Position numbers and translations under genes: made by a program. The notes below the pieces were generated by a model. It worked only from the letters and a program-made list of their open reading frames with translations. It had not been told where the DNA came from and made no database searches. DNA of 64,000 nucleotides from Heterotrichella gracilis (lineage: Eukaryota > Sar > Xanthophyceae > Tribonematales > Xanthonemataceae). Where the stretch lies: assembly GCA_032358255.1 (NCBI GenBank), contig JAULBX010031813.1, positions 1 to 64,000 of the forward strand, written 5' to 3'. This document shows positions 539 to 50,196 of this stretch, in pieces; position 1 is the stretch's first letter, and each line of letters starts with the position of its first letter.

Positions 539-3500
539 ATGGCACGCAGCAGGAGCAGAAGCAGGAGCCGGGATCGAGACAGGAGGCGGAAACGAAGCAG
601 GAGCCGCAGCAGAGACCGGCACCGAAGGTAAAGGTTGCACGCCGTAGAACAATACCTGCGAAGCGAGAGGGACAGGTATCTGCATTGTCGTTTGCATTTT
701 GCACGAGAAGTCGACTAGGTTATACGGTATGGGGTTGTCAGCGAGTGTATGCATGCAAAGTTGGGATGCATATTGCTTATATGCATGCATATGGCATGCA
801 TCCGCAGTTCGTTTTTTGACCTGGCACAGCGGCAACTTCTGCAACTAACGCATATCAATGGTACCGTAAGGTTCGTGAAGTTGGTATTTCGATTCCACTG
901 TGGCTGGTGCTTTGCCAGGTATGTCCAATACCTGGTTTACAACCCCATCGTTGGCGCTTGCTTCTCATACAAACGCCTCCATGCCTCAACCTGTGGACAA
1001 CTCTTGTTTGCTTATGCCCACCAATATTTGCCACCTTCCACACTTGTACTGGAATAGTGTCCCATTATCCACCGGGCGCACACAAGTTTGCAAACCCTCC
1101 TGCATTCCCTAGTAGGGTTGGTTTCTTTATCTCGGCTTGTCAAGGACCATAGGGCTGGGGCTTTGTAGTATTTGTGCAATTAAATTATTCCTTGCATGTG
1201 CGGCACATATCGCTGCTACATGCCTCGGGAACCACTCACGGAGGTGGCCTACAATCCTACTGAAAAGCGACGGGCTTTTCATCGTTTCAATTTTTTTTGT
1301 CTTCACTGGTTGGCCATTAATTTCGCCAGATCTGACTTCTAAAACCATTTTTTGTTGCAGTACCATACCCGTAATTGTGTTCCACCTTCCCCCCCTTGCA
1401 GGCGGCAAGACGACGACAGTGGGGATGAGCGGCGGCGGCGGCAGGGGCGCAGGCGGTCAAACAGCAGGGATAGACACAGGGACCGGAGTCGAGACAGGGA
1501 TAGGGAAGGGGACCGGGATAGGGAGAGGAACAGGGACAGGGGTGGGGACAGGAACCGGGGCCAACAAAGCCCACCACCAGATGCAAACAGGTCCGCCCCT
1601 GCATGCAGCACGTGCACCCAATTTCTGCTGTTGGCGTATCATAACTTTGTCCATCATGGTTTGTCGGCACATCGGTGGCAGCTGCATTCTACTTCCGCAG
1701 ATGGATAGCATTTCTCATACCAGCTGACATGACATCCCCATTGCTGAACAACGCCTCCATCCATTGCAATGATGGAGACCCCGTGGCACCCCCTGCCTGT
1801 ATGGTCCTCCTCCCCCTTGATCCCACATGCATGCACTAAGCTTTAAACCGTAACGTTCCCACAGGGCGGCGTCTCCACCTCTAGACAGCGCGGAGGAAAA
1901 GAAGCGGGCCAGGCTTGCCAAGCTGGCAGCGTGGAAGCTGCAGCAGCAACAGGCAGCGGAGTCAGCCACCGAGGCAGCGCTAAGTGGCAGCGCGGATGCT
2001 GCGCCCGAGGCCCCCAAGCAGGAAGCATGGTGGGTGATGCAGACAGTGGCGCCGGCTGGTTATTTTCCACGCTTGTGCACTGGTGATACAGCGCTACATG
2101 CAGTGCATAGTTACAAATATAAATAAACAATTAGCTAGGTCCACGAAGGATTCATTTGCAACTAATTTCCAATGTAGGGGTAAGTAGCATAGTTTATTGC
2201 ATGGTTTATTGCTATGGATTGCAGGCGAATGCAGGTGTTGAGCCATGGCTGGGGGCATGGCTTCCCACGAGGATGGCGGCATCCTCGCAATTTCCTATCT
2301 GCATGACCTTCACCTTCCCCTGAATGCATACAATAATTCCATGAACAATGCATACATTGGTTGCACAATGGATGCATGTTGAATGGGTTCCACACATGCG
2401 CCTGCAGGATGCCCTGGGATTGACTTTATACTTTAAAACCACTGTTATTTCCCTATATTCGTCACAGTTGTTGCTACACCCACCATGATCCCCACATACG
2501 CACTTGCAGGATGCCCTGGGATGACCCCAGCACCATGGCAGCTGCAGCACAGGCGGAACCACCTGCGCATCACCATGCCCCCTCGCCCTCCTCCTCGCCA
2601 GAACCAGACCCCACCCCTGCGCCTGTGGCCCCTGCGGTCTACTCAGTCCCTGCCGAGATCCTTGCGCACAAGGCCAAAGCCGCTGTGGCTGAGGTGGAGA
2701 TGATGTATAAGCATCGGTACCAGGTACGGGCACTTGCAGAAACCTGGGATTAACCCTAGTTTACCCTAAACCCTCAAGCCCTGAACATTCTTTTGGCTGA
2801 GGTGAAGATGATGTATTAGCACTGCCAGGTGTGAGCTTTACCCTAAGCCCTAAGCCCCACCCTAAAACCTTGACTGTAGTGACTGAGGTCCAGATGATGC
2901 ATGAGCACCAGTATCAGATTTGGGATTTGCCATAGATCTTACAATCCCTATCTGCACATTCCCTCCCCTCGCAGGACGACGATGCCATTGACCCCCTTGA
3001 CGCCTTCATGGAGGCCGCTGTGCTGCCCGAGGTGCAGGCCAAGGAGGCGGAGGAGGCGAGGCAGAGGGAGGAGGCAAGGAAGAAACTGGCGCAGGACATT
3101 GCGGTATGTGGGAACGAATTTCCTGGATTCATCTGAATTGGTGTTTTGATTGATTCCAGGTGCTTGTCGCCCCTGCTGTCTAGAAGCCTGAAGCCTCGAT
3201 ACTGTGCCTATACCACCTATCCTTGAACCCGAACCCTAATCCTGAACCCAAAGCCCTGTGTTCCAGGCTGGCAAGGCGCCTAAGATCGATGTGGAGGAGA
3301 GCGATAGCGAGGAGGAAGCGGATGAGGAGATCCAGATCCCTGAGAACAAGATCAAGCTCATGGTGGGCGCGGGGGGCGAGAAGATCAAGTGGATACAGAG
3401 AAAGTCAAAGGCCAGGGTGCAGGTGGGTGGGTGGGGAAAGAAGGGGGGGCAACAGCCTGCTTGTGCTTCTTGGCGCCTTGCTGCGATACAGGGGGGTGGC

Positions 3501-5053
3501 CGTTCGTCATCCTTTGGGAGTGCAACAGGGGTTTGCGACTCAACGGCCACATGTTTAATTCACGTGGTCGTAAGCCCACACACTCTGGCCTTGGCCTTGT
3601 TACCCACAGCCCTAATACCCGTCGCCACAGTGGAAGTTTTGCGGCAAACAAAAGAGTCCATCCCCCTCCCCCGGGGCACACCGTGATCAAGAAGAAGGCC
3701 ACGATCCCTGCTCCCCCTGACACTACATATTCCCCCCTTTGCCTCCAGATCAAGAAGGATGCCAGCGAGCTGTCCAAGGCCTGGGGCACCACACTGGTGG
3801 ATGACGTCATTCGCAAGGTGGGCGAGCGCGCGGAGGGCACCCGCAAGATGGTGACTGTGCAGCTGTTTGGGGGGCCAAAGGAGCTGGAGGTGGTGAAGAA
3901 GCTGATCGAGGAGGCGATTGACAATAGGTGGGGTGTGTGTGTGGTGGTGGGGGGGTGGGGTGGTGATGTGGTGGGGGGGGGACGTGGCGGGTAGACGGTG
4001 GGTGGCAGGTGGGTGGTGTTGTGGCGGGGGGTGGGGTACAAGAGGTTGGGGGCGGTCAAGAAGCTGATTGGGGGGGTGGTGGACAACAGGTGGGGGTTTT
4101 GTGTGGGCAGTTGGATGTGGGAGGAGGGGTGGTTGTAGGTAGGTGGGTACGAGCCTTGCCGGATACTCAATATTATCTGGCAATTTAGTTTTTATATGTT
4201 TTTATATTGCTCGCAAAGTTTCAGCCCAGATATTGTATTCAGTCTTGCACATGCGGTGCCAAGCAGGTTCTGTCACTGTTTATCTCAATTGTTGACCTTG
4301 CGCAATATGATGTAAATTACTTCAATCCAGCGTATATTTAAATGGTGTGACTTGGCGGGGGGCATGTGAATGGGGGTGAAGTGTAAGGTGCAATTGTATG
4401 GGGTGCATTGAGGGACGGCATTGGCTGCGGGCTGCTGACAAGGTGCTCAAGCGGTGGGTGTGGCTTGCAGGGAGCAAAAAGCAAAGCAGCGGGAGAAGCA
4501 GTATGAAAAGAAGAGGGATGACAAGCTGCGCCTGCGCCAGATCTACCACTTGCGGCATGCACATGATTACGAGGTGAGATTCCGCTGCATTGCATACAGG
4601 GATGGTAGTATGAGGTGCACCCTTGGGCATCCCCCACTCCATGCGTGCATGCGTGCCCCCATGTATATCCCCCACCTGGTGTGTACATGCGGCCATTGCA
4701 TCCCCCCACTTCAACCCTCACCCACCACCCACCACTGCCGCCCACCCAGGTGCTAAAGCTGTCCATGGGCGCCCCATTTTAAATTTAGTTGTCCACTTTG
4801 TTCTTATCTCAATTCACACCATTCACTCCCCACCCAGGTGCTTGAGCTGCCCATGGGCGCCAGCAAGGACGACGTGAAGAAGGCGTACCGCAAGATGGCC
4901 ATCAAGTGGCACCCAGACAAGCACCCACACAACGCCGAGGAGGCTGCCAAGCGCTTCCAGGAGGTACAGACCGCATACCAGCGCCTGATGACCAGCGACG
5001 AGGACGAAACCATCCAACAGCTGGAGGCGGGGAAGAAGGGGGCCAAGGCGTGA
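539..5053 (+). CDS. SR-rich, KH- and J-domain protein (putative RNA-binding co-chaperone)
   Basis: Nine exons: 539-627, 1402-1590, 1865-2029, 2510-2723, 2975-3103, 3267-3422, 3749-3927, 4471-4573, 4838-5053; 479 aa, one frame throughout. Residues 1-90 are Arg/Ser/Asp-rich like splicing factors. Residues about 95-260 are Lys/Ala/Glu-rich and include DPLDAFME, a stretch also typical of the N-terminal region of Prp5/DDX46 helicases, but no helicase follows. Residues about 285-373 look like a KH RNA-binding fold with the GxxG loop GAGG. Residues 409-465 are a J domain with HPD at 433-435, so Hsp70 stimulation is expected. A nuclear role linking Hsp70 to RNA or spliceosome complexes is inference. 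The donor after exon 2 (gtccgc) is weak, so that junction is the least certain. Introns carry copies of exon edges. Confidence 0.8.
2390..2424 (+). repeat. Intronic copy of exon 4 acceptor edge
   Basis: Near copy of 2490-2525, including the TGCAG acceptor and the first exon bases (GGATGCCCTGGGAT). It lies about 100 bases upstream of the edge used in the model. Confidence 0.8.
2795..2917 (+). repeat. Two intronic copies of exon 4 donor edge
   Basis: 2795-2834 and 2880-2917 resemble the end of exon 4 (2688-2728): both keep the GCTGAGGT..AGATGATG core and CAG. Telomere-like CCCTAAA words lie between them. Copy one contains a stop codon in the exon frame, so these are decayed copies. Confidence 0.75.
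4052..4093 (+). repeat. Intronic copy of exon 7 donor edge
   Basis: Resembles 3890-3930: TCAAGAAGCTGAT, then GACAACAGGTGGGG matching GACAATAGGTGGGG. The segment between the copies is G-rich (GGTGGG repeats). Confidence 0.7.
4741..4774 (+). repeat. Intronic copy of exon 9 acceptor edge
   Basis: CACCCAGGTGCT..AGCTG.CCATGGGCGCC repeats the start of the J-domain exon (4831-4862). The copy has a usable-looking CAG but diverges into AT-rich intron after about 30 bases. Confidence 0.8.
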
Positions 5054-6056: not shown

Positions 6057-9000
6057 ATGAGCGGAGTATGGGGCAGTCCCCTTCAATCCCCTGGCAATCT
6101 GCCGCTATTAGCCCCTCAGCCCGAGGATTTGGCCTATGGGGTCTTGCCTCCTTTCCCCAGGGCTCAGTCCAGCGCCTCTATGTCGTGGACCGGCTCGTTC
6201 CACGGCCCAGACGACCTCGACTCGATGCTCTCCAGCATGGCTCTCAGCAGCAAATCCGAAGGTACCACTGATACCACCTGCAGCTCGCCCCTACCACCGC
6301 CACTCCCCAGGCACCACCACAGCCGCTCCGCGTCAGCATGCAGCGAGTCTCTGCCTTTTTGTCCAGAGGAGGAGTTCAGCTTGGGTATGGGCCAACCCCT
6401 CGACAGGGCCTATTCACTGGACACATTCGCTTCAGCGTCCGCCAGGGCACCAGTCCGGCGAACCAACTCGATGCGCGGCCCCAGCGACTTCAACAGCGGC
6501 TACCCAGATATGCAGGCTTCAAGGGGCAGGTTTGGAGCGAGCAGGGGCAGGGGCGGCTACCAGGGCAGGGATCCGCGGGCGATTGGGCCCGCTCCGGTCC
6601 CTCACTCCCCCCTCGCACCCAGCCGAGGGGGGCCAGCAGGCATGGGGGGCGACCACCGCAAGGGCCAGGGATACAGGCGGCTTTGGCAGCAGGTGACCCA
6701 GGTAGGCAGGGGGCAGCGGCTCGGGGAGGGGGAGTCAGTCCCCTTCTCTGAGATGACGGTCGAGGATCTGCTCAAAATCGTGCGGGGGCTTTCCCCTGAT
6801 GCATCTGCCGTGAAGGCGATAGCACCCGGGCTATTTTACCTGGACAGCGGAGCACTGGCAGCGCTACTCAAGGAGCTTTCAAAGGGGGGGCACGCCAAGC
6901 GGGCGGTGGAGGTGTTCGACTGGCTGCGAGGGCTCGACCCCAGCAACGAGCTGCACACCCTTTGCGACGTCTACACATACACCACCATGATATCCCAGTG
7001 CGGCTCGCACCAGCAGCTACGGCGGGCGCTGGAGCTGGTGGCCGAGATGCGCAGCAGGGGCATCCAGTGCAACGTCCACACGTACAGCGCCCTGATGAAC
7101 GTGTGCATCAAGGCCAACGAGCTGGAGCTGGCGCTGGATGTGTACAAGCAGATGCTGCAGGAGGGCTGCACCCCCAACCTCGTCACCTACAACACGCTTA
7201 TTGACGTGTACGGCAAGACGTCGCAGTGGGAGGAGGCCGTGAAGGTGCTGGATGCGCTGGAGCAGCAGGTACGTGAATGATGCGTTGCACCCCTTGCAGT
7301 ACAGGCTCGACTCTGCACTCCCCCTGCACCCTTGGCATGTTTCCCCTCTTCACTTGCCACCCACATGCCAGTCCACACGAGGGGCATTACCAGTGAGACA
7401 CCAATGTGTTAATCTGTTAACCAACTCTTGCCTTTCTCTTTTCTCGTTGTGGGACGATACATTAGTTTTCCTGCACGTCGTTTTAGGGTTGCATCGACCT
7501 CGAAACATCGACCTTGTCCCTCCCACGGCATGTGCCTAGGGGTTGAGCCTCATATCAGGATACACACGCGCCCTCATCACCGCCTGTAACGCGAGCCTGT
7601 ATCCTGTCTCCGTACTGACCTAGTCCCCTGGCATGTGCAGGGCATAGAGCCCGAGATCAGGACCTACAACACCGTCATCATCGCCTGCAACATGAGCGGC
7701 CAGGCCCAGGAGGCCCTCAAGGTATACGAGCGCATGCTATCCTCGGGAGCCCAGCCCACAGCCACCACCTACACAGCCCTCATCTCAGCCTATGGCAAGA
7801 ACGGGCAGCTAGACAAGGCGCTGAACATCTTCCAGGATATGGTCCGGCGGGGCTGTGAGCGTAATGTCATCACCTACAGCAGCTTGATCAGTGCGTGTGA
7901 GAAGGCTGGGAGGTGGGAGCTGGCGCTGGAGCTGTTTAGCGAGATGCACAGGGAGGGGTGCAAGCCCAACGTGGTGACATACAACTCGCTCATCGCGGCC
8001 TGCGCGCAAGGTAAACCCTAAACCCTGAACAGTCCCAGCCGCTGGTGGTTAGCAGCTGGCCCTGCCTGCTGGCCACATCAGTAGCCCCAGCTAACCCAGC
8101 CTGGCTGGTTTGCTATACCCTACCGCAAGCCCTCATCATCCATGTCGTCTGATGTTGCTGTCGCGCAACCGGCAGACGCCCAGTGGGAGATGGCCAGGGA
8201 GCTGTTTGAAATTAAAACCCTGCACACAAACATAAATTCCAAGCTCAAACCTTAAAAACCTACACCGCAGGCGCCCAGTGGGAGAAGGCCAGCGAGCTGT
8301 TTGAGCAGATGCAATCCCGGGGGTGCAAACCCGACCCAGTCACCTATGGCGGGCTCATCGCAGCATTTGAAAAGGGTGGCCAGTGGCGCCGCGCGCTGTC
8401 AGCCTTCGAGCAGATGAAGCACAACACCTGCAGGTAGGAGTGCTGGCCACTTGCCCATAAATAAAACAGTAATAATGAATATACGTCATGCCATCCACAA
8501 GGGCGGCGCTCGCACTTGCGTCGCCAGGATGCAGATCTTCTTAAAGCCCCGGGAGTCTTGCTGTTTCCGGGGTGCCGTTGGTAACTTGCCTCCCTGTTCC
8601 ATCTCCTATCGCCTTCCACCTGGGAAAGGAGCCTAGGGAGGGGTTTGGCGCTGTCCCCTTTGTAACCACCCTCTATCGACACCATGCGTGCATACTTGAA
8701 GCGCTAAACCCTAATACCTTTGGCATAGCCCGTTTTGTGAACGCCCCTCTCCCGTCGCCACTCCTCCAGGCCCGACAGCGTCGTGTACAACACCATCATT
8801 GGCGTGCTGTGGCGCACTGGAGTGGTGTGGGCGCAGTCCCGCGCGGTGGCCATCTACCAGGCCGCCTGCCGCCAGGGCCACTTCAGGCTCACGGTGCACA
8901 CCAACAATGAGCAGGTGTGCGCGCTTGCGAAACCCTAAACCGTAAACATTAAACATTAAACATGGCCACTTTAGGCTGACGGTGCACACCAACAATGAGC

Positions 9001-11888
9001 AGGTGTGTGCCTTTCTCACATGCTACATTGAATGCCTTGTGTGCACGTGTGTTCTTGCCGGCCTGGGGCACTTGTAGTAGTAATCATTAATTCTTAACCC
9101 TAGACCAGGGCCTAGGGGTCTCGTGAGCTGGCAGCCCCTTGGGCTGTGCTGTGTAACTGGGCATTGCCAGGCATGGCGATGAGTTACATTGCAAAAGTAA
9201 TGCTCAAACTCATGCTCCGTCACCAAGCAGGGTGTGGTAAGTTTGGGCTGCACGCCTTCACCGTGGGCGCAGTCATCATCAGCCTGCTGAGGTGGCTGGT
9301 GGAGCTCATACCCAAAACCTAAACTGTAAACCCTACATCATTACAGCCCTCAGGCACAAAGGCCAGAGGAGCACTCAGCCCTAAACCTTAAACCACTGCT
9401 AATGGACATGCTTTCACCGAAGCAGGGTATAGTGGAGTTTGGGCTGCACGCCTTCACCGTGGGCGCAGTCATCATCAGCCTGCTTAGGTGGTTGGTGGAG
9501 CTGAAGGAGAGGCTGCCCGCTGAGGGCCCAGGCATGCTGCGCCACCGCGTGTGCCTCATGGTGAACCGCAGCAAGCCCAGCCGGGACCACGCCTATCCCC
9601 ACATCAGGGCGGCGGTGGCCTCGCTGATGGCTGGCAGCAAGTGCCCGCTCAGGTGTGTGATTGGATCCCCGTGTGTGTTTTTGGGCTGTGTAGCCTGGCC
9701 ATAGTGCCTCACAACATTCGATCACCTGTACCACACTGTACCTTTACTAAAATGAAAAGCCAGCAATGCCTTGCCTTTTGCCCTAAAGCACAAACCCCAA
9801 ACCCCAAACCCTGAAGCCTCTGCACCCCCACTCATGCATCCCCCACCCTCCACCCCTGCAGCATGATGGAGGTGCCCCAAGGCTTCAAGCTGGAGGGCCC
9901 CTCCTACGAACTCTCCGAGTGGCTGCGCACCAAAGCCCTGGAGGGTGCCGCGCTGCTGCACTACCGCGGGGAGGGTCCAAGGGGTGCGCCCAAGGATGTG
10001 GTGCTAGGGGAGGATGAGGCGGTGGAGAAGCGGTGTGGGGAGGCGGTGGCTGCGGTGCGGCGATTCGAGGAGGGGCACCAGGTGGAGGCGCAGGTGGGTG
10101 GGTAGGCGATTGTGGTGTGGGTGGGGGTTTGGCGGTGGCGGTGGTGGTGGTGGTGGTGGTGTGGTGGTGGTGGTGATGGTGGTGGGGAGGGGCGTCCTGG
10201 CACTGTGGGTTCCATGGTATGGTGCAGCGGCATGCTGGCTGTTTAACCATCAACCCCCACCCTCGCTTCGTGTCACTACGTTACATCGTAAACCCTAAAG
10301 CCCTCCCACTGCCACCATCCTCCTCTCCTTGCCACAACTGTGTGCACTGTGGCGGGACGACCCACTGCCCCTCTCCCGTCCCTTCCATCACCCTAATTTA
10401 CTCTCCTCTCCTCCCCTCCCCAGGCCCTGGCCGCCATCTTCCCCACCTACCTGCAGCATCGCAAGACCTGGATCGGGGCGGCAGACAGCTACAGCAAGCG
10501 ATTTGGCTTCAAGGAGGAGGTCCTGTTTGACGCAGTGCTGCTCATTGACAGGGCGGTGGCAGCAGGGGTGCCCCAGGAGAACATGCTGCTGGTGGTGGCA
10601 GGCTGTTTGCTCATCTCTGCAAAGCAAGGTGCGTGGGGATGTGGTGTGTGTGTGGTGGGGTGGGGGGGGAGGGGGTGCCCATCTCGGGTTGGCAAGGTGT
10701 GTGGGGACTGGTGGAGAGTGGGTTGAATATCGCCATGTATTGGATGGACAGCGTTCCATTGGTTATCTGCAACCTTGATTGGATGGACCCTGCAGGGTAT
10801 CGACGCCCTAACGGCTGCTGCTGCTAAGATCCGGCAATGTACTGCTGCTGCTGCAGCTAAGCTCTTGTGGTGGACTGCTGCTGCTGCTTATTCGCTGCTG
10901 CTAACCTGCACCTGCTAACCTGCTGCTGCCGCTTGCCGTAGGCGAGCACCCGGACCGCCTGCCCTCACCCGCGCAAGTCGACCTGGTCTTCGCCAGGAGC
11001 GTGGCGGAGGTGGAAGCCATGGAGGCGCTGGTGCGCCAGAAATTGAACAACGACACCTCAGCCATCTCTGCCCTGCGCTGCCTCAAGCTGTTTTTGGAGC
11101 GCCTGGGGGCCAATTTCGGGGACCCCGAGATGTTGGCGGTGGTGGGGGGCAAGAGCCTGGAGTTTATGTTGGATGCTGTGGGGGACCAGTATTTGTTCCA
11201 CTACAGCCCCTCGGTGGTGGCGGCGGCCATGCTGTACGCCTGCAGGCGGCTGCGGGGGACGGTCCCGGCGTGGCCCCTGGCCCTGGAAACCCTCACAGGT
11301 ACGGCATGCGATGGGATGGGGTGGGTTCAGGTGGGATGGGATGGGATGCAGTAAGTACGCATATGCGAGATCCCTCAGGCTGAAGTAGATGATAGTGTTG
11401 CTGTGTGTACTCGTGCTTGAAATGGCATACGCCAGTGGGGCAGCGTGGAAACCATTCTTGTGAGTGGGTTTCCATGGGAACCCTCACAGGTAAGGAATCA
11501 CCTCACGTTTCACTTCACATTGAGATGGCATCAGGCTGGGTGTTGAGCTTGGCATTGACCTTGTGCGTGTAATGGGAGACGAAACCCTAAACCCTAAACC
11601 CTAAACGCCTCAATGGTGGGCATGCCTGTATGCCGTGTACACCCTGTACTTGGGCCTCTACACAGCACATAGGTATATACACCTGAAAACCGTCAGGTAG
11701 GGGATGCATGTGGGTGCACACCAGCATTCAAACCCCTCATGTCCTCACCCCTCCTCACAGGGTTCAAAGAGGACGAGCCAGGAGAATTTGCAAATGCGGT
11801 CAAGGCAGCCGACCACCTCCTCCTGCAGAAGAAGGTGTATGGCAGCCCGGTGTCTTCCTTTGACTTTGACAACAGCGAGCATCAGTGA
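6057..11888 (+). CDS. PPR protein with SMR-like and C-terminal cyclin-fold domains
   Basis: Nine exons: 6057-7268, 7641-8010, 8271-8433, 8770-8914, 9426-9652, 9862-10093, 10424-10628, 10942-11298, 11761-11888; 1,012 aa. Residues 1-300 are Ser/Pro/Gly-rich and disordered-looking with an RG-rich patch. Residues about 304-620 form about nine 35-residue PPR motifs (NVVTYNSLI-type helices with alternating Asn/Asp/Thr-Tyr patterns), which bind organellar RNA in known families. Residues about 633-775 resemble the SMR region that follows PPRs in GUN1-like proteins, but the usual DLHG core is degenerate (GLHAFT). Residues about 790-1000 look like a cyclin box (AVLLIDRAVAAG..LLVVAGCLLISAKQ, then a second helical repeat). 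A role in plastid or mitochondrial RNA processing is likely; no clear transit peptide is seen. The first ATG of the long frame was taken as start. Confidence 0.85.
8171..8210 (+). repeat. Intronic copy of PPR exon 3 acceptor edge
   Basis: GGCAGACGCCCAGTGGGAGATGGCCAG.GAGCTGTTTGA matches the beginning of exon 3 (8267-8305) with few changes. It then runs into AAACCCTG-type sequence before the real acceptor. Confidence 0.85.
8963..9007 (+). repeat. Intronic copy of PPR exon 4 donor edge
   Basis: Repeats 8876-8919 almost exactly, including the CAG/gtgtg donor. The two copies are separated by AAACCCTAAACCGTAAACATTAAAC. Either donor could work; using the first keeps the reading frame. Confidence 0.9.
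9224..9307 (+). repeat. Intronic copy of PPR exon 5 acceptor edge
   Basis: About 84 bases nearly identical to 9418-9503, from the AAGCAG acceptor through GTGGAGCT. Most base differences are third-position synonymous, but a small indel near the start breaks the frame. CCCAAAACC/AAACCC words follow. Confidence 0.9.
10128..10192. repeat. GGT/GGC trinucleotide tract in intron
   Basis: Imperfect (GGT)n with GGC and GAT variants, inside the intron between exons 6 and 7 of the PPR gene. Confidence 0.9.
10810..10935. repeat. CTG trinucleotide clusters in intron
   Basis: Several short runs of CTG/CTA (GCTGCTGCTGCT) separated by unique bases, ending just before the TAG acceptor of the second cyclin-fold exon. 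Confidence 0.85.
11477..11495 (+). repeat. Intronic copy of PPR exon 8 donor edge
   Basis: GGGAACCCTCACAGGTAAGG matches GGAAACCCTCACAGGTACGG at the end of exon 8 (11284-11303). It is short but contains the full donor. Confidence 0.65.
11582..11606. repeat. Interstitial telomere-like array
   Basis: Three and a half perfect AAACCCT units inside the last intron of the PPR gene. This is the plant-type telomere heptamer. Confidence 0.95.
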
Positions 11889-11951
11889 ATGCATCACTGG
11901 CTTCAAAATGGAGCACCAGTGAATGCAGCACTGGCTTCGAAATGGAGCAAT
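11884..11951 (+). repeat. 34-bp tandem repeat spanning the PPR stop codon
   Basis: Two units, 11884-11917 and 11918-11951, differ at only a few bases (AGTGAATGCA.CACTGGCTTC.). The TGA stop lies inside the first unit. Confidence 0.85.
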
Positions 11952-19995: not shown

Positions 19996-27675
<7,680 letters not shown>

Positions 27676-35972: not shown

Positions 35973-38900
35973 TCACGCCCGCACAAACTGCCTGTTGTCC
36001 CCATCCCCCTTCTTCCCGTATGGGTTGTCGGCGCTGAAGGAGTGGCCCGACCCCTTCCCCCGCCGGTAGTCTGCGCCCCCTTGGCCCTTGATGGCCTTGC
36101 GGGTGTTGCGGGCCTTGCTCTCCAGGTTGAGGTTCACCTTGGGGGGCACACTGAATCCAAAGGATTTTGCCACCCCCTGGAGGTCCAGCGTGTGCACATT
36201 GAAGATGTCCTTGAGCTGGTGGGAGTTGTAAGCCAGGATGTAGGACCTGGGGGGGAAATATGATTATTTGGTATATGTGTTCCATGCGAACCATACATAA
36301 GGGTTTACTGGCGCATGTCCTTGCTGGTGGGAGTTGTAGGCCAGGATGTAGGACCTTGGGGGTGTAAGAGTAAGATGGGTTATTAGAAAACATAATTTTC
36401 ATGAGAACCCTACATAAGGGTTACTGGCGCATGTCCTTGAGCTGATGGGAGTTGTTGGGCCAGGATGTTGGACCTGGCGGGTGGCATGGATCATACTTGT
36501 CAAAAGTGGGCCCCTAGACTGTGGCCAGCCACCCTATATTGCCATCATCGCGTGCGCACCTGTATGCGTCCCTTGCACTTGTGTGCAGGTAGTAGTTCTT
36601 CTCCACCAGGCGCTCCAGCTGTGACTGCACATTGGCCACCTTGGTGGTGGGGAACTCGTACTCGTTCAGGGGGACCTTGGCGGCCTGGGAACGGGGAGGA
36701 AACACAGCGATTACACAAGACTAAACAAAGCTTTGCTAAAACCCACAACCCTAATTATCCTAATTCATGCATTTGCTTTAGAGCTGCATTGGCAGGGTAC
36801 ATTCCTCGCCCTTGGGCAAAGGCAATTTTTATTGAGCAAATGACGGGCAAATTGGCAGTACCAGTCTCAGGTTCAGACCACTGTTTGAGGGTTTTGTAGC
36901 TCACCTTGAGGTACTTTAGGAACCCTAGCTCCTCCGGCAGCAGCATGAGCAGCCCCCGCCCCTTCCCGTTGCGCCCACGTGCGGTGCGCCCCACCCGATG
37001 GATGTACTCCTTAGGGTCATCTGGCGGGTCGTACTGGATAATCCAATCCACCGCTGCACAGCAAAGGGTTGAGGGTTTAGGGTTATGCAACATGTGATCA
37101 TTTGGTGCGCGTGATTGGGTGTACTCCTTGGGTTCATCTGGAGGGTCGTACTGGATAATCCAATCCACTGCTGCACTGCGAGGGTTATGGTGTAGGGTTA
37201 TGCAGCATGTAGAATGCAACTGACTCTACATTACGCCTTGTATTGCATCACACCAAGCACACTTTTACCATCTGTACCAACCGAGCCAATTCTACTGCGG
37301 GGGCACAATAAATCACTACACCACACACGCACGTGCGGTGGATGCAACTACAAACAGTGGCTGCACGCCATGCGCTCTGCCTTTCCCAAGCCGCCGTCAA
37401 GTGCCAAGCCCATCAACACCTAGCAAGTTGTGTCACTGACAACCTCGTTTCCCCCTGATTTCACACCACCCACCTGGGATGTCCAGGCCGCGCGCCGCCA
37501 CGTCCGTGCACAGCAGTATGCCCTTGTCAGCCTGGCAGAAGTCAAAGAAGGTGGTGGTGCGCTTCTGCTGCTTCTGCTTGCCATGGATGTCCTTCACGCT
37601 GATGTCGATGTAGTTGAGCAGCTCCGCGTAGTACTTGACGGCGTTGCAGGAGGAGAAGAACACCATCACCTGACAGGGGAGGAGACGGGAATGGCATTTG
37701 GTGGGTAAGACTGGGGAAGGGTTTTAAAACTGTAGGCTGATCCGGACGTTTTGAGACTTCACATCCATGTCATTTCTATAGTTTTCTCTTACCACAGCAA
37801 AAACCCAACCCCAACCCCTGCCGTCCAAGCCCCATTGTCTGCACCCATTTCTACAGCTGTTCATTGCGCCAAATTGAATCCTTTTCAACACAACCCACCC
37901 CCGCAGCCCAGCCCCCGCGTTCTCAATCAGGAACATGAACAGCAGCAGGAAGCGCTCAGGGGTTCTCAAGGTTTAGGGCTCATAATAAAGGGTTTCTTTC
38001 TTTGCCCCCACCTTCTTGTTTGCGTTCTTCTTGAGAAATGTGAACAGCAGCAGGAATCGCTTATCGCTGGGCACCACGCAATAGCCCTGCTCCAGGCCCT
38101 CGCGCGTGCTTGCCACCTGGGTGTCGTCCACCCCCACGTACAGGGGGCGCGACTTGAAGGACAGGCGGGCAAGGTCCTCCACCTGGCGGGGGGTAAGTTT
38201 CACAGTTAAGAGGCGGGGAGGCACAATGCAGATTCGCATCACGAGCATTGTCCGCCTCGGGAATGCAATGAATAAAAATCCTTTTAACCTTGCCGTGTGT
38301 AACCTGGTCTGGTTCTCCAAAGTATGTGCGCTACCCATGCTCACGCAGTGGTCGATGGTAAGATCGGAAAAATCAATGACAAATTACAAACGCCCACCCT
38401 TCAGCCACCTCAATCACCCAAATCCGGCTTCACCATCAATCCACACATGTTGCTAAGCCCCAAACCCTCACCCCACACCCACCCACTTTGATCGTCCATA
38501 CAGACAAAAACCCTAAACCCTAAACCCTAAACCCTCCACCGCCCACCTTGGTTGTCTGCGTGGCCGAAAACAGCATGGTCTGGCGGTCCTTGGGCAGCAG
38601 CTTGATGATCTGGCGCATCTCCTCCTCAAACCCGATGTTCAGGATCCGATCCGCCTCATCGATCACCAGGCAGGCCAGGCTCCGGAAAATGAACCCCTTT
38701 GTGTTTTGGAGGTGGTCCAGCAGGCGCCCAGGGGTGGCCACAACGACGTTCACCCCCTTGACTAGGCGCTCGGCCTCGGAGCGGCGGTTGGCTCCCCCCA
38801 TGATGAGGCCTGAGGGTCATGTGAGGGCAAAATTTAGGTATGGGGTTTGGACCAAGGTTTAATGGAGTATAGATTATCTATACTCCACCAAACCTCTAGA

Positions 38901-40951
38901 GAAACAGGTTGTCGCTCTGAATTAAGGCTTGAGAGTGGTTCAGGTGCAGCCATGACCAGGCCTGACGATAAGACGGCGCATCGGTAAGGAATCGGTTTAG
39001 AGTTCAGGTCATGCAACTACCCACCCGCAACCCCACGCCTTTTGCTGGCTCCCCCTGCTGCCCATGCATGCATACAGTTACGCATTAAACCGCTGGCATG
39101 AAAGCTAGCCCAGCGGCCCCCTGGCAGGCTGCCAGTGGCAGCCCGTGCAATACCGCGTAGCCAGACCCAGCACCCTTCAGGGATTAACCCAAGAAGAGCA
39201 CTGGCGCATGGCTGTGGTGCTTCAGCAGGGCGCGCACCGCCTCTTAGGGTATTCAATGCATGTACCACGGGATCAAAACCCTAAACCCTAAACCATGAAA
39301 GCGTACCGTGCGTTTGGCTGTGGTGCTTCAGCAGAGCGCGCACCACCTCGTAAATCTGCAGCGCCAGCTCACGCACGGGCGCAATGACCACCACCCCCGT
39401 GCCGTTGCGCGGCATGAACTTGGCCCGGTACAGCAGCTCCACGCAGGGGATGAGGAACGCTAGGGTTTTGCCGGACCCCGTTTTGGCTGCGCCCAGGACG
39501 TCCCTGCCTGTGAGTAGGGCGGGGATGGTGCGCGCTTGCACCTCCGTCATGTGCACAAAGCCCATCTCCTGGATTGCCTGCGGGCAGTGTGGGAAGCAGC
39601 GTGGGAGGCGATCCAGGGCAGCAGTGTGTACCTCATGCACAGGGCACTGCACATGAAGCAATGCCAGGACAGGGATATTTGCCGCGAGGCATGTAGACTG
39701 ACTGCTGATCCAACTGTTACTGCTGGAACCCACTTAAGGAGTAAGGATTGAGGGCAAACTCCACCCACCCACCGTGCGCGTGTTTTCGCTCAAGTCCAGC
39801 GAGTCAAACTTGGTCTGGCTCATGATACCGCTCACGCCCACCTCCACGCGCTCAAAGGCAAGCTCGCAACGAGCCTTCTTGCCCTGCAGCAGAGGGAAAT
39901 TGGCTAAGTCAACTCCACAGCCAAGGATTAACCCCCCCTGCAAACTTTTAAAACCTTGAAAACCCTAAAGAGAGCTGGCGCCGCCACTGGCGGCCGTGTC
40001 AATCCAGCCATACTGGGTCGCGATCCCGTCCCCCAAGCTGCGAGCTTGAGGGACTGCCAGGTGCACCCACTGTGCACTCGCATGGGTTGCACCAAGCCTA
40101 ATCATACCTTCTTCTCATCGCCGCCAGCCTCTTCTTCATCCCCATGCTCGTCTTGCCCACTGGGCTCTGCCACCTCCTCCTCCTCCTCTGCCTGAGCAGC
40201 TGGGGCCAATGCAGGTTGGGGCGCCTTGCGCTTCTTGGCTGACTTTGGTTTCTCCCCTGGCGCTTTTACGTCGGCATTGGCAGGCGGATGTGGTGCTGCT
40301 GCTGCTGGCGGGGCGGGGTGTGGTGCAGGCGTGGCGCTAGGGGGAGCTGCACAATAAGGTTTTAGGGTTTTAGGGTGTCCATAGTCGCCATATGAGGCAG
40401 GCAGGTTGCTGCGCGTGCTTTATCCGAGGATATTGCGTCTTTATAATTCTAGTGCGATATGTGTGCGGGAGGAAAAGGCCGCGTGGCTTCAGGTGAAAGG
40501 TGTGTACCATGCTGTGCAGACTACTGCATATGCATGCATGTGCACTGCGCCATAAACCAGGTACAGTCGACCAAGACCGGCGGCTTCATACTTTCAGCAG
40601 CCCGTTCGCGGCTTCACAAGGTGTGGTGGCGTTCGCTGTGCCGAAAGGGACCTCGGCGACGGCTAGTGCCAGGCAGACGAGTGCTATGGCGGCAACTTTG
40701 CAGCGTTTTCACACTGAAAGAACCCCAACCCAGCACTGTCACAGTCCACCGCACACGAATGCCAGCACCATAGTTACACTCATACTTCCTTGCGAGATCC
40801 CACGCACTCCTGAAAACCCCGCCACACCCACCCTTGCTTCAGTGCGGGCGGCTGTCGTACCTGGTTGGTATGTAGGCGCTATGAGTCCTGACTTGCTCTT
40901 CCTCTTTTTCTTCTTCTTCTCCATGCTGACCACAGGGTCAGTGGTCGTCAT
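35973..40951 (-). CDS. HAS1: ATP-dependent DEAD-box RNA helicase HAS1/DDX18 (ribosome biogenesis)
   Basis: Ten exons in gene order: 40951-40861, 40346-40108, 39883-39773, 39577-39307, 38809-38547, 38182-38012, 37669-37474, 37053-36905, 36684-36560, 36246-35973; 629 aa. The start is the first true ATG; an upstream in-frame GTG was rejected. Residues 1-110 are Lys- then Ala/Pro- then Glu-rich. The helicase core has Walker [10 protein letters not shown] (177-185), DEAD (288-291), SAT, and motif [11 protein letters not shown]. The C-terminal block with [12 protein letters not shown] and VPPKVNLNL is the HAS1/DDX18 signature and sets it apart from other DEAD-box proteins. The family works in the nucleolus on early 60S and 40S precursors. 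Motif Ia reads PVREL where PTREL is nearly universal. Introns contain copies of neighbouring exon edges. Confidence 0.93.
36308..36478 (-). repeat. Two intronic copies of HAS1 exon 10 acceptor edge
   Basis: 36308-36358 and 36421-36478 both resemble 36200-36250 (TGGGAGTTGTAGGCCAGGATGTAGGACCT on the plus strand matches the used edge closely). Each carries the reverse-strand AG acceptor. Each copy is joined to ACATAAGGGTTTACTGGCGCATGTCCTT-like sequence. Confidence 0.9.
37113..37178 (-). repeat. Intronic copy of HAS1 exon 8 acceptor edge
   Basis: Matches 36996-37060 over about 65 bases (GTACTGGATAATCCAATCCAC on the plus strand). Three of five codon changes are synonymous. The copies are separated by GAGGGTTTAGGGTTATGCA. 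Confidence 0.95.
37912..37956 (-). repeat. Intronic copy of HAS1 exon 6 donor edge
   Basis: GAACATGAACAGCAGCAGGAAGCG resembles GAAATGTGAACAGCAGCAGGAATCG at 38035-38059. The reverse strand reads RFLLLFMFL against RFLLLFTFL in the exon. Confidence 0.85.
38508..38536. repeat. Interstitial telomere-like array
   Basis: Four AAACCCT units end 11 bases before the donor of HAS1 exon 5 (exon ends 38547). Confidence 0.97.
39203..39294 (-). repeat. Copy of HAS1 exon 4 donor edge plus telomere-like array
   Basis: 39203-39243 resembles 39311-39350 (GGCTGTGGTGCTTCAGCAG.GCGCGCACC.CCTC on the plus strand). Between the copy and the real edge lies AAAACCCTAAACCCTAAACC (39275-39294). Confidence 0.9.
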
Positions 40952-43567: not shown

Positions 43568-45321
43568 ATGGCAACTTCCAGCAAGGAGGATAAAGAGGAG
43601 CAGTACATTCTGCGGGTACAGGACCGCCAGCTGGCGGAAAGCATACGCGCAGAGCTGCAAGCAGACCCCGCACAGGCCGCAGCAGCGACCCCCCTGAACC
43701 TCACCTTCTATGGTACGCCGCTGGTGTGGGTGCCGTAGCCGTGTGGTAGAGTTGTTGCTCTGTGCTGCTGCTGGTGCTGTGTGCCAAGACGGCGCAAGCC
43801 TTACATGCATTGATGGGCGCAAAGCTGGGGGGTCGCAGTTGCCCTGTGGATACCCTGGGGGGCAATGCTAGACAGACTTAAAAATTTTGAATGTCTCTTT
43901 CTCTGTGCATGAATGAATGTTGTGGTAGGTTAGATTAACTCTCGTCTCCCCTTTCCTCCTCATCTTCCTCATCATATACTTCTTCCTTTGGACGTACAGA
44001 GGATGTTACGAGGCTGGGTAGAAGGGATCGGTCTGGCTGCAAGAGGGCCTTGTTATCTTTTATGTCACCCTGCGCGGAACACAGTTTAAGCCCTGCCAAG
44101 ACAGGGTTGTGTGGCGCAAGTTGTGCAAGGGTGGCTGCCCACCTAGCTTTACTGCAGCAGTGCTTGTACTAAACAACTACCTCTTTGACGGTGCAGAAGA
44201 TGACCGGCATGGCGTGTTCAAGTTTGGCGAGCAGGAGTTCCCCACCACAGTGCTGGACCTACCCACGCAAGTGGAGAGCTACAAGTCGTATGATGACGTC
44301 AACCTGGTCAAGATCAACGACATCTCACAGGTGGGCTTGTGGGGCTGGGTGTCCTGTGTGCAATGGGCAGAAACCCTGGTACCTTCAGCAAGAACTACTT
44401 CCTAGGAGGGTGCATCATGACTGGGGGTGTTGGAGTTCTGGCAAGCAATATATGGGGATTTACATGGACGGTCATGCGCAGTCATTTCCCTCCAGATAAT
44501 CAGGCAGTGGGTACAGCTCATGTGCAACGCTCATTGCAAGGAAAAAGGAAGGAAGAAGGGGAAGGCATTTGTGCGCTTTGGATCACAGTGATGTATCCTG
44601 CTGGCCCCAGCACAATCCTCCTGGTGCATTTGCCAACCCAACAGTGTTAAGTCCTGCTTTCGTTGATTTTCCTTGATTTTTCCTGCAGGTGCTGGTGGTG
44701 CAGACCCCAGGCAGCGAACCTGTGCGGGGCACCGAGGCCCGGCATGGCGTGACCCCAGCCATGCGGGATGCCCACAAGCGCCACTTCCGACCGCAGCCTG
44801 TGCCAGACCCCGAGGTCATGAGGAAGGTCGAGGCAGACCTGCTGCGCATCCTGGCGGTGAGCGACGCAGAGCCCTAAACCCGAAACCTTGAATCCTGAAC
44901 CCTGATTTAAACCCGAGGTTATGAGGAAGGTGGAGGCAGACCTGGTGCGCATCCTGGCGGTGAGTGATGCAGAACCCTAAACCCCAGGAAATCTGGCGGT
45001 GGATTCGTATCGTACCACTGATGGAGGTGGTAGCGACAAAAATATTTCTAGATTCGGTGCGTTTTGACTTTGGGCTGAGGCAGATGAGCTGCAATACCTG
45101 GTGGGGGTCATGCAAACCCCCAAATACTAACGAACCATTAACCTGGGGGGGTGATAGCAGACGTGCATTTCCCATCCTTCTGTGTATAACCACGTGGCTC
45201 AAGCTGCGCATGTGGTTTGCAGGGCCATGCCCCAGAAGGGGTGGAGTATGCCGACTACGAAGAGGAGTTCAAGGTGGACGAGCAGGGGAATGGCAGCTGG
45301 GTGGCGTGCGCCAAGCGATGA
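43568..45321 (+). CDS. TAF7: Transcription initiation factor TFIID subunit 7 (TAF7)
   Basis: Four exons: 43568-43712, 44197-44330, 44689-44856, 45223-45321; 181 aa. The N-terminal two thirds are the TAFII55 domain: EEQYILRVQD at the start, then RHGVFKFGEQEFPTTVLDLP and TYDD-like KSYDDVNLVKINDISQ. TAF7 binds TAF1 in the TFIID core and restrains its acetyltransferase activity in other eukaryotes; it acts in the nucleus. The protein ends soon after the domain, near the length of plant TAF7 and shorter than the animal form. A duplicate of the exon 3 end lies in intron 3. Confidence 0.92.
44911..44984 (+). repeat. Intronic copy of TAF7 exon 3 donor edge with telomere-like tail
   Basis: Repeats 44808-44882 through exon end, donor and CAGA.CCCTAAACCC. 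The duplicated unit therefore includes the exon edge, the splice site and the telomere-like word together. Of three exon differences two are synonymous. Confidence 0.95.
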
Positions 45322-46748: not shown

Positions 46749-49700
46749 ATGAGTCCCTGTCGGGCCCACCCTACAGCAAAGCTCAGGGCCCTACACTTCC
46801 TGGTCCTTGTGGTGACAGTGATCAAGGTGCGTATGTCCGTGCCCACCAATGCCCATAGATGTGTCACCTGCTCTTATCAAGTCCAACCCACCAGGGTGCA
46901 TGCATTGCACAATACCCGCCCTTGGGCGTCTTGGGTCTTTGGTCAACCACAATTGCCAGCCCAACGTCTCAGCCCACCCAACTCAACAGTGTTTACCCCA
47001 TTGCACCACCCTTGCACAATATGCGTGCCTAGATCCACCGTTCTGCATCTTTGGGCGCAGGTGTGTGTGTGCCTCTCTGAGGAGTCTTGCTACCCCAGCC
47101 TGACAGAGTGGCCCTATGTCGAGGTGTTGGCCAAGTACGAAAACGCCTCCAGGCCTGTGCGGCCAACAGACTTCACCGCGGTCACACAAACCTCCTTCAG
47201 CAGGTGCGCAGCAGGCCCTAGCTGCGCCCCGCTGGGTTCACACACAAATACCCTAGCAGTGAACCCCTGTGGTTCAAACACATTGCCAAGGGGGTCACGG
47301 CAGCTGCTAGTGAACAAGCAGTGCATTGCTGGTGCCTGCGTGTGGGAGGCGATGGTGGCAACATATGATGGACCCCACAGCCGGGCTGCTCACCGAGCTG
47401 CTTGCATTTCCTCATCTAACTGCAAGTTCCTGGCCGCAGCCGCACCCCTGGCTTAGAGTTTAGGGTTGGAGGTCACATCACCTTGCGCCCTTGCACACAA
47501 CACACAACCTCCTCATTGCCCTCATAGGTTGGACAGGCTGTCGGAGCTGTGCAACGCGTGGGACGGCGTGGTCATCGCTGCGGTGTACTCCCCCTTGGTG
47601 ACTGGACAGGTGACATGCTCTTGCATTCTTGAGGACCAGTGTCACAAAATCCAATCACTGAGTTTTACAGCTAAATACTGTAACGAAAGTGGGTAGCATG
47701 AAAGTGCAACCATCCGCCATTGTGGAAACAGCCCTAGGTCTTATTTTGGACGAAGCGTTCTACAGTGCGTGCTTGGCATTAGTGCTTGACTGCACGTATC
47801 CACTTATTGTGCTCCCATTTGTTTATTGCCTAGGTGGTGACTGTGTTCACCGGCAGCCGCGAGCCGCAAACCCTAGGGGACCTGAAGACCCTCCTGCTAG
47901 GGTTCCACAGGGACCACGAGGCAGCGCGGTGCAAGCTCACCCTGCTGCTGTGCGCCTCCAACGAGATGAAGCAGGAGGACACCGCATGGTACCCAATCAA
48001 CGTGCTGCGCAACCACGCGCTGTGGCATGCAACTACTGAGGTGGGTGCACTGGATACTGGAAGCTTGGCAAGGGTTTTCTTGTTCGCTGAGAAGGGTTTT
48101 ATAAGAGGACGAGTGTGCTCACCTGATGGGAAGGTGTCTGGGTAGCATGTGGTGCACAAATCCAGTGAACATGTTTAATGTCATCCAATGAGATGAAGCA
48201 GGAGGACACCGCGTGGTACCCAATCAAAGTGCTGCGCAACCACGCGCTGTGGCACGCGACCACCGAGGTGCGCCGGGGTGCAGAAAACCTTTGTGGAGGG
48301 AAATGCTGTTCTTGGAAACAACGAATAGGGTGGTACCTTCTGTCACAATACGGGTGGTCCCCAGGTGCACGCAACATGGTAAAGCTGAAATCGACACCAA
48401 TGGTTATGCAATTTTGAAGTGCTGTTGACCTTACAAAACCACAATTTCACCCATGCAGCTCGTGTTTCTCCTGGACATTGACTTCCAGCCCAGCGCCTCC
48501 CTCAACTCGCTCATGGCCAGCCAGCCAGCCTACCAGCGCCTGCACCAGCTGTTGACGCGCACCCGCACAGCGGTGGTGATACCCGCATTTGACCTGCTGG
48601 GGAGCCACAATGATGATAAGGTCATGGCGCTGGCAGCCAGGGTGACGGCAGGTGCGCTCAGGGTTTGTAGGGTTTTGGCGGTGCTGACTGCAGGGTTTTG
48701 GCAACCCGCCGCCTGCTGTGGTTGGTTTAGGGTTGCACTAGGGTGTTGGGGTGTGTGGACATGCAGCAAGGAATACATACAGGCAGGGTTGCGCATGGCA
48801 GTGGCTTGCTTTAATCATAATCCCAATAGGCAAATTGTTCACTGTGTGTTGCATAGTAAATGGTACCCACATGGTCAGAGGCGCTTAAACCTTCGTTTTG
48901 CCTTGTGATTGCAGGAGGCAAAGCCGAGCTGCAGCACCAATGGAGCGAGAAACGCATCAAGCCATTCCATTTTCAGACCAAGGAGTACTCCGAAGCTGGG
49001 CACAGCCCAACCAACTACACCCAGTGGAATGCAGGCAGCAAGGCGTACATTATACCCCCTGTGGAGGCAACTGAGATGGGCATGGTGAGCGCGGTTGGGT
49101 GGGGCATAGTTTTGAAAATGCACACCCTGCATGCATGATGATACTGCCATGCCATGCCATGCAACAGATCCTTTAATCTGCGTTACTTGATACTCGACCC
49201 CTGTACTCCACATCAGCAAGCCACACATCACCTACTAGGGAGTTCCTGGCTATCCTGTACCCGCAACACTTGCCAGGCTAATCGAAACTGCATATTCATA
49301 TTGCCCCTGTCCCATCCCATGCCTCAAACTGAGCGCTCACCCTTCCAACCGCCCATGTCCCCAGCGATTTGAGCCCTACACCATCCTGGCGCTAAAACAC
49401 ACCCCTTGGTACGACGAGAGGCTGCGGGGCAGGTACCGCAACAAGGCCATCCACACATACACCCTGCAGACGCACGGCTTCACGTTCGTGGTGCACCCCT
49501 CGGCATATGTGCTGCATGTGCCTCATGCCAAGGCCATGGAGCTGTCCACCTATGGGCGCCAGGTGTTGAAGACGATGGGGAAACGGGTAGGTCACATTAG
49601 GCAACCGGTGGAACATGAATCTGCAGTTGGAACTGGTCTACTCAGCATAGGTATACCTGGCACATGTATTTTGTATATTTCCTTGAAGGAGGACCCGGGG

Positions 49701-50196
49701 TTCCTGGAAACCTGGACAGCTCTGCCCATTGAGCTGTCGCATGCAGAAGCCCATCATCCCGTTAGTCAACAAAAACAACACAATTGATATGTTCTTCTGC
49801 ATGGCGCCGTTTTGTTCTAACAATCCATGGGCCCGCCCTTCCTGTCCTTAGCATTGGCGCATTTAGCACACTGGTGTCTGCATTGTATGTGCCACCTCCT
49901 TGTCTCAATACACCCGGGCGGCACTGCATGTCCACAGAATTGGCGCATCTAGGTCATGTGCACTGCCGTCCATTCCGCATGTGCCACCTCCCTTTGTTGC
50001 CCAACTCTCTTTCGCCTGTCCACAGAATTGGCGCATCCAGCAGACCATCATCCACAAGGATCCTGTTGAGCCCCTCTCCCAGTACACCTGCAGCAACGCA
50101 GAGGCCAAGTTTGGGCCCCGCTGGAACCCAGTGCCCGTGTCGGCCCCAGATGCAACACATTTTTCCACTATCAACGAGCTCATGGCGGAATTGTGA
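46749..50196 (+). CDS. LARGE/B4GAT1-like glycosyltransferase (GT49 family)
   Basis: Eight exons: 46749-46826, 47061-47203, 47528-47609, 47834-48040, 48459-48651, 48915-49084, 49365-49586, 50026-50196; 421 aa. The start is the first in-frame ATG. Residues about 13-25 (LRALHFLVLVVTV) can be a signal anchor, giving the type II topology usual for Golgi enzymes. Family marks: NVLRNHALWHATTELVFLLD with the metal-binding DxD as DID, VVIPAFDL, FEPYTILALKHTPWYDERLRG, and HGFTFVVHPSAYVLHVPHAKA. Known GT49 enzymes add glucuronic acid or N-acetylglucosamine to glycans; the donor and acceptor here cannot be told. Intron copies of exon edges are present in introns 4 and 7. Confidence 0.85.
48187..48272 (+). 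repeat. Intronic copy of GT49 exon 4 donor edge
   Basis: About 80 bases match 47961-48044, from the CCAA.GAGATGAAGCAGG region through the GAG/gt donor. Six codons differ; five changes are synonymous. Confidence 0.95.
49846..49953 (+). repeat. Two intronic copies of GT49 exon 8 acceptor edge
   Basis: TTAGCATTGGCGCAT at 49848 and TCCACAGAATTGGCGCATCT at 49931 repeat the used edge TCCACAGAATTGGCGCATCC at 50019. ATGTGCCACCTCC also recurs in each repeat unit (about 85-90 bp). Confidence 0.9.

Follow-up and report, generated by a model that had tools for sequence, protein, structure and literature searches.

The stretch of DNA analysed here (the window) covers positions 1 to 64,000 of contig C898 (166,766 bp) in the draft assembly of Heterotrichella gracilis (68.5 Mb, 903 contigs), and many introns of its genes carry direct copies of their own exon edges. 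Twelve genes were modelled in the window. Ten of the predicted proteins were submitted to Pfam and all ten (10/10) returned a family above the cut-off: DnaJ with KH, cyclin, PAP_fibrillin, S6PP, DEAD with CTE_SPB4 (HAS1-like), TAFII55_N, GT49, SIR2, DJ-1 and pseudouridine synthase. The gene labelled 'SPP' in an earlier note on this DNA is a sucrose-phosphate phosphatase gene (Pfam S6PP). The labels of the remaining two genes, PPR and MCM4, rest on protein matches rather than on the Pfam scan. The PPR protein matches one from Haematococcus lacustris (74% over 41% of the query), and the MCM4 region matches Myrmecia bisecta (55%) and a metagenome protein (at best 82%, with 30% of the query covered), the three best MCM4 matches by E-value being a fungus, a sturgeon entry marked as contamination and an entry with a eukprot algal-style identifier. 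Overall, the protein matches are in keeping with a green alga whose named relatives are distant; a search for rbcL gave no match.

The exons of MCM4 were read by eye and then used for training a small exon-intron model, which was re-run after hand masking of 24 visible decoy copies; the 12 genes and 83 introns retained were therefore curated in the knowledge of where copies lay. Small or unsupported exons and the predicted genes at 28881-30191, 57927-58432 and 61462-63976 were left out by hand.

The donor and acceptor edge of each intron served as queries against that intron, with 200 dinucleotide shuffles as the baseline. At z>5, 32 of the 166 edges are copied within the intron that they border (donor 15/83, acceptor 17/83), and these fall in 28 of the 83 introns, compared with 0/73 for control segments taken at least ~105 nt inside exons. 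Scores reached by at most 1 of the 200 shuffles were obtained for 34/166 edges and 2/73 exon-interior controls. Chance as the source of the edge copies is ruled out by this combination of shuffles and exon-interior controls. On a conservative count, without four z>5 matches scoring <30 and without the intron at 23501 (resting on one exon base), 24 introns hold 27 such edges and carry 34 copies when arrays are counted and 33690-33719 is included. The claim of the earlier note that at least thirty introns or intron parts hold such copies was thus about right, and the comparison with shuffled controls that it had called for favours the edges. All copies are in direct orientation, only direct repeats having been searched, and on both strands acceptor-edge copies lie upstream and donor-edge copies downstream of the edge in use, bearing out the arrangement that had been expected of junction-spanning duplications tolerated by splicing.

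When the window was compared with itself by BLAST, 41 local repeat pairs turned up with their members within 3 kb of each other. After 12 were omitted (array members already counted, one PPR-motif match, and telomere-like tract pairs more than 600 bp apart), 29 were compared with the gene labels: 25 are exon-edge pairs, two are intron-only (23825/23961 and 25667/25829), one is a coding 33-bp repeat at 15397 and one, at 57659, is uncertain. Edge pairs therefore outnumber other intronic repeats. The uncertain pair (57659-57732 and 57908-57981, 249 bp apart) is flanked by the DJ-1 gene and by a predicted gene for a small basic protein, and fits no exon edge.

The copies are described below by the period, i.e. 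the sum of the duplicate and of any filler separating it from the used edge. In the SR-KH-J gene, on the forward strand, acceptor-edge copies are found at 2390-2420 (used edge 2492-2522, period 102, filler 71 bp) and, for the J-domain exon, at 4741-4773 (used edge 4829-4861, period 88, filler 55 bp). The donor-edge copy at 2794-2821 is accompanied by an older second copy at 2879-2917 (periods 108 and 194, telomere-like filler), and the KH exon has a donor-edge copy at 4047-4133 (used edge 3885-3964, period 162). In the forward-strand PPR gene, a weak acceptor-edge copy at 7521-7578 (used acceptor 7641, period 103, score 31) precedes one at 8172-8209 (used edge 8267-8304, period 95), whose 57-bp filler is telomere-like and unlike the flank. 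Further along the same strand, exon 8770-8914 is followed by a donor-edge copy at 8961-9010 (period 88, filler with AAACCCTAAACCG), and the cyclin-like gene has an acceptor-edge copy at 9220-9306 (used edge 9414-9502, period 194) and a donor-edge copy at 11472-11498 (period 191). Intron 8915-9425, with both a donor and an acceptor copy, sits between two gene models and outside the 83.

The fibrillin gene, on the reverse strand, has a donor-edge copy at 14760-14837 (used edge 14948-15024, period 187-188) and a weak acceptor-edge copy at 15619-15646 (period 89, score 31). The tail of the fibrillin-like protein is encoded in part by an in-frame 33-bp repeat of the AAEAAAERKRSAEEA type (15391-15534). 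In the same gene, the region 15828-15965 contains a 98-nt intron (15846-15943) with the same 38-bp segment at both ends, such that both intron ends fall inside the two copies. This is the only one of 82 introns with strong mutual duplication of donor and acceptor; it may be a gained intron, and we keep it as a candidate only because the reading frame before insertion fails to work out simply.

In MCM4 (forward strand), three copies of one acceptor edge (the TASFTCDRC edge) with CCCTAAA tracts occupy 21527-21808 (used acceptor 21880; periods 119, 224 and 328). Exon 21880-22051 has a donor-edge copy at 22100-22186 (period 112, TTTAGGG filler), after which come a small acceptor-edge copy with eight exon bases at 22342-22358, followed by a CCCTAAA tract (period 70), and two donor-edge copies with TTTAGGG tracts at 22631-22799 (periods 108 and 196). 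Acceptor-edge copies follow at 23040-23154 (used acceptor 23227, period 115, open in frame), at 25353-25394 (the LHEVMEQQT edge; used acceptor 25482, period 110-115 by alignment, CCCTAAA filler) and at 25930-26007 (used acceptor 26090, period 115, open in frame). Two copies each are also found at the HAS1 acceptor and the SR-KH-J donor edges given here.

The sucrose-phosphate phosphatase gene (forward strand) carries donor-edge copies at 32565-32694 (used edge 32378-32495, period 187) and 33690-33719 (period 68, G-rich filler), the latter in the same intron as an acceptor-edge copy at 33927-33995 (used edge 34026-34094, period 99, filler 30 bp). HAS1, on the reverse strand, has two acceptor-edge copies at 36315-36481 (used edge 36205-36254, periods 117 and 227), another at 37116-37210 (used edge 36999-37095, period 115-117), and donor-edge copies at 37917-37956 (used edge 38022-38061, period 105) and 39209-39246 (used edge 39315-39352, period 106, TTTAGGGTTTAGGG filler in sense). 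On the forward strand, donor-edge copies occur in the TAF7 gene at 44912-44984 (used edge 44809-44881, period 103) and in the GT49 gene at 48184-48270 (used edge 47957-48043, period 227), where the 140-bp filler is unique in the assembly; the GT49 gene also has an acceptor-edge copy at 49926-49952 (used edge 50014-50040, period 88), with weaker copies at 49841-49871 and 49722-49759.

The 25 pairs analysed for duplicate length, filler length and their sum show that these lengths compensate for each other. Duplicates measure 27-118 bp over all pairs, with an exon share of 8-84 bp per copy. In 22/25 pairs the copies are separated by a filler of 18-140 bp, and in the remaining three they abut, being fully tandem (22523/22631, 23040/23155 and 36205/36315). 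Of the interpretation in the earlier note as plain tandem duplication, the tolerance of junction-spanning copies by splicing is supported, but for most events not the simple tandem arrangement. The sum lies between 68 and 119 bp in 20/25 pairs and between 162 and 227 bp in the other five; for the 20 pairs with a sum <150 (a cut-off picked after the gap was seen in the data) it averages 102.8±12.2 bp, with duplicates of 27-115 bp and fillers of 0-80 bp correlated at r=-0.92. When nine pairs from outside the window are added, 23/34 periods are within 70-125 bp; not among the nine are L044 (77 bp), pairs from the telomere array of L015 and pairs involving second or third units at L005 (387, 389) and L007 (204), L numbers denoting loci fetched from elsewhere in the assembly.

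Against mononucleotide shuffles, only 2/22 testable fillers resemble the corresponding flank at z>4, and the mean of the 22 z values is ~0.95, slightly above zero, suggesting that a few fillers may be decayed flank. Two fillers (140 and 71 bp) searched in the 68.5-Mb assembly match only themselves, so that there is no family among these two. Base composition follows the side: acceptor-side filler (nine fillers, 511 bp) has 11% G and 30% C, and donor-side filler (12 fillers) 34% G and 15% C. Copy-free introns share this polarity in weaker form, with 31% G and 22% C in the first 100 nt and 20% G and 31% C in the last 100 nt. The branch-point consensus is of the CTRAY type, and CTRAY/CTAAA motifs occur at 1.37 per 100 nt in acceptor-side filler, 0.62 in donor-side filler and 0.46 in introns overall. 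We take the polarity and the branch-point-like motifs, on these small numbers, as a fit for splicing.

The copies have decayed to different degrees on the two sides of the junction. Over the 25 pairs, exon parts are identical at 991/1075 positions (92%) and intron parts at 494/584 (85%), so that divergence in intron parts is about twice that in exon parts. This is about the gap expected if a free copy is compared with a constrained one in the exon part and two free copies are compared in the intron part. Differences at codon positions 1, 2 and 3 (17/357, 20/362 and 47/356) give a 2.6-fold third-position excess, roughly in keeping, within count error, with the ~1.8-fold excess expected if only the used exon is constrained. 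Splice dinucleotides are intact in 29/30 copies whose alignment includes them, against ~25 expected, a difference from which nothing is concluded as the alignments favour intact sites. In the alignment table, 32 rows with period 0, self-matches from incomplete masking, were dropped and rows lacking exon bases were uncounted. That the copies generally serve as coding sequence was considered and rejected: only 2/13 acceptor copies (MCM4, 23110 and 25976) would open in frame if used, the other 11 giving a frameshift or stop, in a test that covered acceptor copies other than those of HAS1, fibrillin and the weak PPR match.

Edges are preferred over intron interiors. Uniform placement of the observed segment lengths on these genes predicts that 31% of pairs (35% for longer ones) would touch an edge, and 24/26 edge and intron-only pairs do so as entered (25 edge pairs by gene labels; p=9e-11). 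The time for which a pair can be recognised is roughly doubled at edges; allowing for this brings the expectation to about half, and an excess is still left. Its simplest reading would be breaks within exons or beside them.

Telomere-like sequence is a property of introns here, enriched, though not exclusive, where copies exist. Telomeres of this genome are built of the unit CCCTAAA/TTTAGGG: contigs such as C70 and C140 begin, and C607 ends, with long perfect arrays of it, and a few arrays are interior (C109, C120). Coverage by telomere-like 14-mers is 6.4% in introns with copies and 2.0% in those without, compared with 0.6% in other DNA and 0.01% in exons. Counted by intron the contrast is weak, telomere-like tracts being present in 13/28 introns with copies versus 13/55 without (p=0.046, all introns). 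The exact sequence AAACCCTAAACCCTAAA occurs 2,731 times in the assembly and its reversed control not at all (0); exact telomeric 17-mers number seven in the window compared with ~2.6 predicted from the assembly mean. The first 100 AAACCCTAAACCCTAAA places listed merge to 92 tracts on 16 contigs, and among these listed places 7/76 gaps between tracts are of 84-126 bp, all on the same strand (0.19 expected at 70-130 bp), and 0/76 are of 21-69 or 131-160 bp. A spacing of ~100 bp thus exists outside the window, independent of gene models. Telomere-like content differs sharply between regions: the segment C607:100001-140000 (L039-L042), predicted to be intron-rich and similar in codon use to the window, has zero CCCTAAA/TTTAGGG, and the end of that contig consists of telomere repeats.

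The window is a rich region for the pattern, and within it 28/65 introns before 50.2 kb have copies at z>5. Other loci were scanned with unchecked automatic models from a self-trained model (score ≥30, no homology checks), in a procedure that drops exons <30 nt and introns >1,200 nt and that finds copies in 20/98 introns when applied to the window. Five loci fetched by MCM homology gave 5/36 introns with a copy and four fetched by kinesin homology 1/19; L014 and L015, fetched by telomere pattern and hence biased, were kept out of the tallies. Edge-type copies are also present on contigs C901, C206 and C237. The MCM-family gene at C206:14459-17668 (L005) has many edge copies, among them ~190-bp tandem units in which small exons seem to be contained almost whole. 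The MCM-domain gene of L001 (C24:312655-315984) differs from the multi-exon MCM genes on other contigs in being a single open frame of 726 amino acids, and may come from another organism. Local repeat pairs number 34 in the 64 kb of the window, one in 40 kb of C607 and two in 200 kb of C1. GC content is 54.6% in the window versus 35% in the 200 kb fetched from the 894-kb contig C1 (L019-L038), which also has few telomere-like motifs. The assembly, judged by the GC content of C1, seems to be of mixed origin; C1 is probably a contaminant, and for its 35% GC it was dropped as a sample of the same genome and kept as a contrast only.

We favour, with a probability of roughly 60%, the explanation that the copies are scars of many separate small insertions, mostly left by error-prone repair of breaks in or beside exons. 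A break near an exon edge would be followed by fill-in and end joining, which would duplicate the overhang and re-copy a short local stretch, and in most cases extra synthesis would add non-homologous, partly telomere-like filler, the whole amounting to ~100 bp as in 20/25 pairs. Insertions wholly within exons would mostly spoil the protein; junction-spanning duplicates would survive because splicing hides copies that include the splice site, and would do no harm provided that the spliced copy is the one contiguous with the remainder of the exon. The outer copy would then become intron and drift, and some units would be re-duplicated later into arrays of 2-3. We infer from this scheme that the contiguous edge is the spliced one and that the change was the addition of a unit, not its loss. 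In mammalian cells, breaks whose overhangs are filled in by CST-Pol alpha-primase give rise to small tandem duplications (PMC8355091). Telomeric repeats enter at break repair in mammals, at times with a target-site duplication (PMC2246262); PMC7215372 is reported to deal with interstitial telomeric sequences of this kind. By analogy, the same fill-in and telomeric repair may act in this alga. Introns likely grow in steps of similar size through such insertions. The proposal in the earlier note of a continuing route of intron growth is supported as regards lengthening (median 395 nt for introns with copies versus 252 nt for those without), but a strong mark of intron creation is confined to the fibrillin case.

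Several observations weigh against repair as sketched here. The near-constant total length is not predicted by a plain repair model, and neither are the run of 18 copy-free introns in the window nor the absence of copies in C607: in the SIR2, DJ-1 and pseudouridine synthase genes (51576-61423, after 50.2 kb), which serve as an internal negative, 0/18 introns have a copy in the same edge test, and in 40 kb of C607 it is 0/61 by the automatic models (score ≥30). The density claimed earlier is thus high in the window but stops at ~50.2 kb, and in the genome it is uneven, with few or no copies at most of the loci sampled elsewhere. The step is not sharp at all loci either, since three of the nine outside pairs (131, 138 and 148 bp) fall between the main cluster and the two-unit group. 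As for the telomere link, many fillers are AT-rich and without telomere likeness, and before 50.2 kb the difference in telomere-like tracts (13/28 introns with copies versus 10/37 without) is not significant (p=0.12).

A filter imposed by splicing on mutations of any size, arising anywhere, is the alternative to which we give most room, although we consider it improbable. A spacing below ~85 nt would lead to use of the wrong site and larger insertions would be rare, so that what remains would fall in a narrow window around 100 bp and would seem to favour edges; the G-poor, CTRAY/CTAAA-rich filler on the acceptor side could then supply a branch point below the decoy. The same spacing is, however, seen at donors, where no lower bound is obvious, and among telomeric tracts on other contigs. 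The edge excess over uniform placement persists when detectability is doubled, donor-side filler is much less rich in the motifs, and copy-free introns share the strand polarity. Somewhat less credible still is a simple tandem origin, in which slippage or unequal exchange duplicated ~105-bp units spanning the junctions and the filler is the decayed intron half. From it the constant sum follows at once, and the three abutting pairs, the apparently random exon share per copy and the slightly positive filler-flank scores (some filler possibly being decayed flank) count in its favour. It is difficult to reconcile with the finding that alignable intron parts are still 85% identical, yet 20/22 fillers lack a flank match at z>4, the match being missing even beside exon parts that are >90% identical (8172, 48184 and 39209).

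An explanation specific to telomere maintenance would have enzymes of that system act at exon breaks, extending the 3' overhang with telomere-like sequence to a regulated length of ~100 nt before it is filled in and joined; duplicate plus filler would therefore be constant. We regard this as speculative and improbable. Introner-like mobile elements that insert introns of ~100 bp appear very improbable. The increment is close to the size of a small intron, and introners are said to be largely confined to lineages that evolve fast, green algae among them (PMC9860276); but no shared element was seen, the two fillers searched matching only themselves and only telomere-like sequence recurring, and the duplications of 27-118 bp are far from the 3-9 bp quoted there. 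An assembly artefact, or collapsed or duplicated haplotypes, has the draft state of the assembly and its seemingly mixed origin in its favour and can nevertheless be practically dismissed, given copies that differ by 8-15% with codon-position asymmetry, that recur on C901, C206 and C237 and that leave open reading frames of recognisable proteins. The graded divergence of the copies likewise speaks against the assembly duplication that the earlier note had allowed for.

Isolated cases have so far supplied most of what is inferred on intron lengthening and on the origin of new splice sites. Here, 50 kb of one genome present dozens of events whose source, breakpoints and decay can be seen, so that rates, repair signatures and the splicing filter would lend themselves to direct measurement. 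Neither the compensating lengths nor the ~103-bp increment nor the telomere link was to be expected, and all three can be tested; if the involvement of telomere-maintenance enzymes were true, introns would grow in ~100-bp quanta where splicing hides them, and spare splice sites and branch points would be gained.

The tandem genomic duplication model of intron gain is reportedly that of Rogers 1989, Hellsten 2011, and Gao and Lynch 2009. It is an established model of intron origin, and the potato RdRp case reuses signals of an existing intron-exon junction (PMC4974935). Similar to that model, local duplication across or near splice signals alters intron content here, with an intronic direct copy of the adjacent exon edge at 32/166 edges. 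In contrast to it, existing introns mostly lengthen; the one candidate gain (1/82) is also the only intron of the Rogers type, bounded by two copies, and its reading frame is uncertain. The CST-Pol alpha-primase duplications (PMC8355091) share with the present case small duplications from staggered breaks, made by a fill-in complex that is also telomeric, but they come from mammalian cells, the word filler is absent from that paper's text, and the parts of it consulted describe no fixed ~100-bp total or link to introns. Interstitial telomeric sequences (PMC2246262) are comparable in that short telomeric tracts mark places of ancient breakage, in some cases along with a target-site duplication; they differ in being mammalian, and no tie to exon edges or to a fixed increment is described in the sections accessible. 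Introners (PMC9860276) resemble the pattern in the mass addition of intron-sized DNA but not in their repeat family, of which the two searched fillers show none, nor in their short (3-9 bp) target-site duplication. Among the titles and abstract openings of open-licence papers, no account was found of intronic exon-edge copies as dense as these, nor of the telomere link, and the available parts of the Coccomyxa genome paper mention nothing similar on introns, repeats, tandem copies or telomeres. What differs from known tandem-duplication introns is the filler between the copies (22/25 pairs, with 3/25 abutting), the compensating lengths that give a near-constant total size, and the density, with 28/83 introns affected in one window.

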